Source of the DNA: Halalkalicoccus sp. CGA53
Lineage (GTDB): Archaea > Halobacteriota > Halobacteria > Halobacteriales > Halalkalicoccaceae
Direction: 5' to 3'
Length of the DNA: 64,000 bases
Assembly (NCBI RefSeq): GCF_036429475.1
Contig: NZ_CP144125.1
Coordinates: 558,001-622,000, forward strand
Shown here: piece after piece, positions 6,427 to 9,400 of the stretch
Layout of the letters: every line of letters begins with the position of its first letter
How positions within the stretch are numbered: position 1 is the first letter of the stretch
Position numbers and translations under genes: made by a program
Notes under the pieces: generated by a model
Told to the model about the DNA's origin: nothing
The model's input: only the letters and a program-made list of their open reading frames with translations
Database searches by the model: none

Positions 6427-9400
6427 TGCGGCCGGCCGACGAGCGGTACTTCGAGCGGCTCGAAACGCGGCTCGAGGAGGCGATGGACGTCGCGAGCGAG
6501 GCGAGGAGACGCGGCGAGGACCCCTCGCCCGAGGTCGAGATTCCGATCGCGAAGGACATGGCCGACCGCGTCGAGAACATCCTCGGGATCGAGGGGGTCG
6601 CGGAGCGAGTTCGGGAGCTCGAGGGGCAGATGAGCCGCGAGGAGGCGGCGCTCTCGCTCGCGACGGACTTCGCCGAGGAGCGCGTCGGCGAGTTCGAAAC
6701 CCGCGAGGGACGGATCGAGGGGGCAGTGAGAACGGCGGTCGCGCTACTGACCGAGGGCGTCGTCGCCGCGCCGATCGAGGGGATCGACGGCGTCGAGATC
6801 CTCACGAACGACGACGGCACCGAGTTCGTCAACGTCTACTACGCCGGGCCGATCCGCTCGGCGGGTGGCACCGCCCAGGCGCTCTCGGTGCTGGTCGCCG
6901 ACTACACGCGCGCGTTGCTCGGTATCGACGAGTACGACGCGAGGGACGACGAGGTCGAACGTTACGCCGAGGAGATCGCGCTCTACGACGGCGAGACGGG
7001 CCTGCAGTACACGCCGAAGGACGAGGAGACGAAGTTCATCGCGCGGAACCTCCCGGTGATGCTCGACGGGGAGGCGACCGGCGACGACGAGGTTTCGGGC
7101 TTTCGGGACCTCGATCGGGTGGATACGAACAACGCCCGCGGCGGGATGTGTCTCGTCCTCGCCGAGGGGATCGCCCAGAAAGCCCCGAAGATCGAGCGCT
7201 ACACCTCCCAGCTCGACGAGATCGACTGGCCCTGGCTCGACGACCTGATCGAGGGGACGATCGGGGAGCCCGAGGGCCCGTCCGCCCCCTCCGAGGTCGA
7301 ACCCGACGAGGAGGACGGAAGCGAAACGGAACCCGAGGTCGACGAGGACGACGGAGACGAGTCCGAGGGACCGGTCCGGGTCGAACCCGCCGACAAGTTC
7401 CTCCGGGACCTGATCGCGGGCCGGCCGGTGTTCAGCCACCCCTCGCGGGCGGGGGGCTTTCGCCTCCGGTACGGCCGGGCGCGCAACCACGGCTTCGCGA
7501 CGGCGGGCGTCCACCCGGCGACGATGCACGTCGTGGACGACTTCCTCGCGACCGGGACCCAGATCAAGACCGAGCGGCCGGGGAAGGCGGCGGGCGTGAT
7601 CCCGGTCGACTCGATCGAGGGGCCGACCGTCCGGCTGGCCAACGGCGTCGTCAAACGGATCGACGATCCCGAGGAGGGGCTCGAACTCAGGAACGGCGTG
7701 GACGCGATCCTCGACGTCGGCGAGTACCTCGTGAACTACGGCGAGTTCGTCGAGAACAACCACGCGCTCGCACCGGCGTCGTACGTGTACGAGTGGTGGA
7801 TCCAGGAGTTTTCGACGACCGAAGCACCCGTCGAGGCGATGGCGGACGACCCGCGGATCGACCTCGACGACCCCTCTCCGGAGGAAGCGATCGAGTGGGC
7901 GATCGAGTACGACGCGCCGCTGCATCCGAGCTACACCTACCTCTGGCACGATCTCTCCGTATCCGAGTTCCGCACGCTGGCCGACGCGGTCGACGGCGCG
8001 AAGATCGCACAGACCGACGGCGCCGTCGAGCCGGGTCGTTCCGGCACCGCGGTCGGCCGGGGTGGGACGCTCGTGATCGAACGCACCGAGGAAACGAGGC
8101 GAGCGCTCGAATCGCTGCTCGTCCCCCACGTCCAGGAGGAGTCCGAACTCCACGTCGAGGAGTGGAAGCCCCTGGTTCGCTCGCTCGGCCTCAACGAGAC
8201 GCTCTCGCGCACGTGGAAGACGCTGAGCGACCGTGCGGAGGGGTGGCCGAACGCGATGCGGGCGGTGAACGAGGTCGCCCCCTTCACCGTCCGAGAGCGC
8301 GCGCCGACGCGGATCGGCAACCGGATGGGCCGGCCCGAGAAGTCCGAGTCCCGCGACCTGAGCCCGGCAGTCCACACGCTCTTCCCGATCGGCGAGGCGG
8401 GCGGGACCCAGCGGGACGTGACGAAGGCGACCCACCACGCCCCGGAGATGAACTCGACGCCCGGTCTGATCTCCGCCCTGGTCGGCCGCCGAGAGTGTGT
8501 CGACTGCGACGACTTCACCTACCGGAACCGCTGTCCCTCCTGTGACGGGCGGACCGAACCGAGCTACTTCTGTGAGGACTGCGAGATCGACCTCGACCCG
8601 GACGAGGCCGGCCGCGTCGTCTGCCCGCGCTGCGAACGGGAGGGGACGACGCTTCGCTGGGAGACGATCGACCTGGACGCGATCTACCACGAAGCGCTCA
8701 CCTCGATCGGCGAACGCGAGGGGTCGTTCGAGATCCTGAAAGGGGTGAAGGGGCTCACCTCGGAGTTCAAGACCCCAGAACCGATGGCGAAGGGCGTCCT
8801 CCGGGCGAAACACGGCGTCTCGACGTTCAAGGACGGCACCGTCCGCTACGACATGACCGACCTGCCCGTCACCGCCGTGAAGCCGGAGGAGCTCTCGGTC
8901 ACGGTCGACGAGTTCCGCGAACTCGGCTACCACGAGGACATCGACGGCGAGCCGCTCCGTCACGACGACCAGCTGGTCGAGCTACGAGTCCAGGACGTCG
9001 TCCTCTCGGACGGCGCCGCAGAACACATGATGAAGACCGCGGATTTCGTCGACGATCTTCTGAAACGATACTACGGACTGGAGCCGTTCTACGCGGTCGA
9101 CGAGCGCGAGGACCTGGTGGGAGAGCTCGTCTTCGGGATGGCACCGCACACCTCCGCAGCGGTCGTCGGCCGCGTGATCGGCTTCACGAGCGCGGCTGTT
9201 GGATATGCCCACCCATATTTTCACGCAGCAAAGCGTAGGAATTGTGACGGGGATGAGGATTGTATCATGCTTCTCATGGACGGCCTGCTCAACTTCAGCA
9301 AGTCCTACCTGCCCGACAAACGTGGCGGACAGATGGACGCCCCGCTCGTGATGAGTTCGCGGATCGACCCGACGGAGATCGACGACGAGGCGCACAACAT

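Follow-up and report, generated by a model that had tools for sequence, protein, structure and literature searches.

Silent diversification around the pol-IIa intein site of haloarchaeal polC and its relation to intein state

In most discussions, resistance to homing drive concerns engineered systems or single cases. In a wild strain of yeast, Gimble (2001) reportedly found the target of an endonuclease to be degenerate. For mobile self-splicing introns of yeast mitochondria, Repar and Warnecke (2017) described gradients of SNP density at exon edges and did not decide between error-prone repair and co-conversion with sequence from outside the population; inteins were not mentioned (PMC5378118). 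Soucy et al. (2014) list pol-IIa and pol-IIb as inteins of the DNA polymerase II large subunit, with mini-inteins being numerous at pol-IIa (PMC4071816). Haloferax endonucleases cut empty alleles and home into them (PMC3024317, PMC10643990), and single synonymous changes of the target are tolerated by endonucleases (PMC3024317). Turgeman-Grott et al. (2023) reported Haloferacales mcm alleles that resist invasion by MCM-d and a proline which blocks splicing; plasmid assays yielded escaper point mutations at the MCM-a target, and the mcm insertion sites were compared as amino-acid logos, MCM-a being called conserved (PMC10643990).

Here, we describe the gene polC of Halalkalicoccus sp. CGA53 (G000; the congeners are labelled G001 and G002), which lies in a window of 64 kb, i. 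e. the whole stretch of DNA that was analysed. In haloarchaeal polC, synonymous diversity climbs toward the homing site and returns to background on both sides. Table 1 lists the features of the gene.

Table 1. Features of polC in the window, with codons numbered according to G000
Feature	Position	Strand	Basis
polC, DNA polymerase II (PolD) large subunit DP2, intein-free, 1187 aa	6426..9989	+	PF03833, PF24844, PF24846; translation
AT3-rich, synonymously recoded tract, codons 923-949	9192..9272	+	GC3 0.41 vs 0.90; top 25- and 27-codon windows in the gene
Core, codons 934-945 (6 codons per side of the junction), roughly as large as a LAGLIDADG footprint	9225..9260	+	AT3 excess by intein state
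Empty pol-IIa intein insertion point, N939/C940	9242..9243	+	inserts at the same junction in relatives
Order-wide silent halo, codons ~913-966, measured over relatives	9162..9323	+	run of the joint signature with its centre at codon 939-940
Likely second (pol-IIb) intein site, codons ~969-971, empty in G000	9330..9336	+	G055 alignment break 968-972; signature run 969-970

The AT3-rich tract and the intein site of polC

The original prediction had claimed a tract of rare, AT-ending codons in polC, centred on an N/C junction described as an intein site of polymerase D. Both parts proved correct. GC3 is 0.90 for the whole gene and 0.41 for codons 923-949, and in a sliding-window check of codon usage, as had been proposed, the 25-codon windows richest in AT3 (15 of 25 codons; polC mean 2.5) start at codons 922-925. 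AAT and GCT, which occur in the tract, encode none of the 22 asparagines and none of the 98 alanines elsewhere in the gene; TAT and CCA, which are clustered in it, are used elsewhere for one of 35 tyrosines and one of 63 prolines. When 38 long ORFs (13,668 codon windows) of the 64-kb window were scanned, the polC tract shared the top score; the other high-scoring stretches appear to lie outside gene bodies, either where an ORF ends or ahead of a likely start. AT-richness at the junction is also found in haloarchaea other than G000. Taken by itself, the tract of G000 is uninformative as to whether its own lineage was ever invaded.

A search of 59 relatives gave many polC matches interrupted near residue 940. 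The sample analysed in the following consists of 224 haloarchaeal polC alleles, whose extein sequences were placed by motif anchoring at the junction: 107 are empty, 87 contain a full intein (52 of type A with 488-496 aa, 35 of type B with 504-517 aa), and 30 contain a mini-intein. The inserts, which are 178-517 aa long, are located in all 117 cases exactly at N939/C940, which is taken to be the pol-IIa site. Both dodecapeptide-like motifs were detected by regular expression in 46 of the 52 type-A and in 33 of the 35 type-B inserts. In G001, a 492-aa type-A intein with LAGLIDADG_3 and intein splicing domains occupies the junction, while the polC of G002 is empty and has a GC-rich, canonical-looking core; neither congener possesses the tract, which is hence not common to all close relatives. 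Within the G001 intein (L032:1172-2860, minus strand), residues 212-239 of the translated segment match the helix-turn-helix of the phage CI repressor (PF07022, E 7e-6). The polC alignments of G055, G064, and G022 break at about codons 968-972, and these genomes have long ORFs of up to about 2,294 aa; both observations point to a further (pol-IIb) intein, which would lie some 30 codons downstream and sometimes stand alongside pol-IIa.

Silent diversification and its dependence on intein state

The silent halo extends over about 25-30 codons (about 90 bp) on each side of the junction. For pairs of the same genus, synonymous codon identity is about 0.82 in the flanks and about 0.5-0.7 over most of the positions -30 to +35. 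Across families, the tract identity of empty pairs falls below the value expected from codon usage (-0.11 to -0.16 in the central bins), and the synonymous deviation is mostly positive in bins farther from the junction. In empty cores, four-fold sites have third-base frequencies of C.34, G.33, T.17, and A.16, compared to a background of C.60, G.34, T.03, and A.03. Codons 913-972 constitute the only well-conserved stretch of several bins in polC which combines a clearly negative synonymous deviation with an AT3 excess; a weaker version was observed in one 12-codon bin (337-348) and in a poorly conserved linker near 289-312. The pattern in polC is one of diversification and not that of a single imported sequence.

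For the comparison of intein states, AT3 excess was defined as the use of AT-ending codons relative to each gene's own usage and determined for 215 GC-rich alleles. (Family f2 of the same order, with G010, G026, G039, and G048, comprises assemblies of 0.9-1.1 Mb which are 58-78% complete and whose polC has a GC3 of about 0.3.) A bump of AT3 excess covers about -30 to +24 codons around the junction. In the core, its height depends on the state of the site: for the left and right six codons, the values are +0.25/+0.22 in 101 empty alleles, +0.10/+0.04 in 52 type-A alleles, +0.09/+0.13 in 34 type-B alleles, and +0.04/+0.01 in 28 mini-intein alleles, i. e. about 0.23 for empty, about 0.07-0.11 for endonuclease-bearing, and about zero for mini-intein alleles overall. 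Left of the core, empty alleles and those with an endonuclease have a similar excess, and the minis have a weaker one. The core difference between empty and endonuclease-bearing alleles is 0.150 (p<=0.00025, labels shuffled within 10 families); the same family-stratified shuffle gave no difference 37-60 codons upstream. At the level of genera, the core contrast has the same direction in 16 of 21 cases (Wilcoxon p=0.0005) and is absent from the outer-left region and the far flanks. Note that the genus labels were assigned by hand and cover only a part of the sample, and that related alleles retain some dependence on one another, even inside genera. These data support the conclusion that presence and strength of the tract follow intein and endonuclease status across the order. 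Independent of this status, codons -12 (Ala), -11 (His, CAT), and -8 (Phe, TTT) relative to N939/C940 are unusually often AT-ending in all groups, minis included; either an intrinsic signal or a long-standing feature of the target could account for this.

Other genes and a methanogen family

In order to compare genes, a joint rule was applied, under which a window of 24 codons in conserved sequence must have both a synonymous deviation <0 and an AT3 excess >0.05. In polC, this rule selects the run 913-966, with the junction at its centre, as well as a tiny run (969-970) near the likely pol-IIb site. For MCM, the result is a run at 400-436 and a single window at 487; the run surrounds K415/S, the Walker A site, which PMC10643990 names MCM-a. 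For PolB, a run at 667-669 coincides with motif C (YGDTDS), where an intein interrupts the alignments of G069 and G031. Both measures reach their gene-wide extreme four codons away from the junction in polC, on K415/S in MCM, and two to four codons from the motif C site in PolB. MCM-a is, in this sample, the most diversified conserved stretch of MCM at the nucleotide level. In MCM, the secondary sites near 443 and 481 give a weak signal or none, as does the one at motif B of PolB. The joint signature is absent from the other fully conserved motifs of polC, MCM, and PolB and from the P-loop of RadA; neither RadA nor the RNR gene, an uninvaded paralog which was used as a control and not as a replication, contains a run. 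Among the genes compared, the signature is specific to mobile-element sites and not a general mark of conserved motifs: it is present at the main sites of polC, MCM, and PolB and in neither of these two genes. A small run at PolB codons 926-927 (G000 numbering), where no intein site is known, is due either to chance or to an unknown target. In addition to its main MCM, G025 encodes three short (460-480 aa) MCM-domain ORFs with similar scores on contigs C1, C4, and C21.

A methanogen family (f19) served as a further control. DP2 is intein-free in all 11 genomes searched, and the ten that were profiled show no synonymous dip at the corresponding codons. At DP2 codons 901-936 of these methanogens (loci L344-L353), a mild AT3 excess is accompanied by high synonymous identity. 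Because this excess occurs in an empty family, part of the upstream AT signal in haloarchaea may be intrinsic.

Origin of the tract and comparison with known systems

The interpretation to which we give slightly more belief than doubt regards the tract as the scar that repeated attack of homing endonucleases has left at an empty pol-IIa homing site, with escape selection acting in the core. Intein endonucleases circulating in haloarchaea would cut empty polC alleles at N939/C940. Since the protein sequence of the active site is fixed and cannot change, only silent changes would survive; these would build up around the cut by inaccurate break repair. Within the six codons on each side, escape selection would retain those silent changes which prevent recognition, and many of them would be needed, because endonucleases tolerate single synonymous changes (PMC3024317). 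As such changes are kept there, persistently empty alleles would acquire a recoded core, while invaded alleles would have kept or received a cuttable one. Old mini-intein alleles, which are protected and lack an endonuclease, would drift back to the codon usage of the host. The wide halo and the near-uniform third bases presumably reflect the contribution of inaccurate repair, and the core contrast that of blocked recognition. In favour of this view are the position of the tract and its silent nature, its dependence on intein state, the recurrence of the signature at the main sites of MCM and PolB, its absence from RadA and the RNR paralog, the missing synonymous dip in the methanogens, the lack of a donor in the sets searched, and the published cutting of empty alleles and escaper mutations in Haloferax (PMC10643990). 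Escape selection cannot explain the whole halo, because the latter exceeds an endonuclease footprint and because its outer-left part does not differ between empty and endonuclease-bearing alleles. Several observations argue against scarring and escape: G002 is empty and still has a canonical-looking core, the secondary sites of MCM and PolB are weak, the PolB run at 926-927 lies at no known site, endonucleases tolerate single synonymous changes, and, in view of the AT-ending codons at Ala-12, His-11, and Phe-8 in all groups and of the upstream AT3 excess of the methanogens, part of the upstream signal may have an intrinsic cause.

The original prediction had favoured a foreign segment, imported from a present or former intein carrier by co-conversion or left behind by exact intein loss after transfer. 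Inteins do move between these lineages, the tract of G000 is sharply unlike those of both congeners, and 14 of its 24 codons are common to the distant empty allele of G129. As a donor, G129 was nevertheless rejected: its score of z=5.9 dropped to 3.6 after site-specific codon frequencies had been applied, and this value was obtained in 95 comparisons. Under the same frequencies, none of 4,249 cross-family pairs exceeded z=4.5, and empty alleles share no imported haplotype beyond site-specific expectation. The low-GC family f2 was dismissed as a donor as well, as its 12-13 matches in 23 codons are expected from its codon usage. Searches with a 120-aa region around the tract found no match in phage or plasmid records, nor did a 111-bp stretch across it in the plasmid set. 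Moreover, the alignment with intein-bearing alleles, which had been suggested as a check, placed the tract of G000 no closer to them than to other alleles, the cross-family identity stays below codon-usage expectation, and the four-fold composition is unlike that of a GC-rich haloarchaeal donor, which should have brought C.60 and G.34. With no donor in the phage and plasmid sets, no shared haplotype, and the wrong base composition, an import is quite improbable. Selection on the endonuclease target, which had been named as a further option, comes nearest among the earlier proposals; its sign is the opposite, as the changes lead away from the target instead of keeping it.

Inaccurate repair of cuts might also be the only cause; then, no resistance would be selected, and the lower core signal of intein-bearing alleles would be due to short co-conversion of the donor core during homing. 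The width of the halo (about 90 bp per side, more than a LAGLIDADG footprint), the equal outer-left signal in empty and endonuclease-bearing alleles, the near-uniform third bases at four-fold sites, and the precedent of the yeast mitochondrial introns (PMC5378118) are in agreement with such a purely mutational footprint. By itself, it leaves the strongest contrast between empty and bearing alleles in the core unpredicted, unless co-conversion tracts span just about 20-30 bp, and we regard it as rather unlikely. Less credit, comparable to that of an import, is due to an intrinsic nucleotide or codon property of active-site segments (slow codons, an RNA signal, or relaxed codon selection), to which inteins would be unrelated, merely inserting in conserved active sites. 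The AT-ending codons -12, -11, and -8 across all groups and the mild upstream excess in the empty methanogens fit this idea, whereas the joint signature is missing at the other fully conserved motifs and at the RadA P-loop, the core signal varies with intein state within families and genera, the low synonymous identity speaks against a conserved element, and the methanogens lack the synonymous dip.

Building on scarring with escape, we tentatively propose, with more reservation than for the polC tract itself, that empty alleles at the most-invaded haloarchaeal sites have undergone silent recoding in many independent events, which would constitute a protein-neutral resistance to the intein gene drive, and that such scars could map past and present homing-endonuclease targets in any genome. 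An archaeal order seems to record resistance to homing drive at several genes, namely in essential active sites which permit only silent change. If true, this would explain the persistence of intein-free alleles alongside active inteins and qualify the view of protein-conserved sites as conserved targets. It would also offer a sequence-only route to homing targets, and repair mutagenesis could be separated from escape selection in a tractable host.

As in the yeast case attributed to Gimble, a natural homing site is altered, there together with its own endonuclease; unlike that single case, the haloarchaeal pattern is silent and order-wide. With the mcm alleles and MCM-d (PMC10643990), our system shares empty haloarchaeal intein sites, for which resistance to invasion and, in plasmid assays, escaper point mutations were reported; in contrast to the proline found there, the change described here is silent, lies at the nucleotide level, and is strong at MCM-a. 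The literature searched, with partial coverage, contained no report of a silent-halo signature for inteins; the nearest precedent are the SNP gradients of yeast mitochondrial introns (PMC5378118). In both systems, mostly silent diversity is raised toward the homing site of an endonuclease-bearing element, and the same two mechanisms, error-prone repair or co-conversion, are candidates. Whereas the yeast gradients concern introns in mitochondria at the scale of a population, the haloarchaeal halo concerns inteins in archaeal genes, is order-wide and found in empty alleles, and adds a shift of codon composition as well as a core contrast that depends on endonuclease status.
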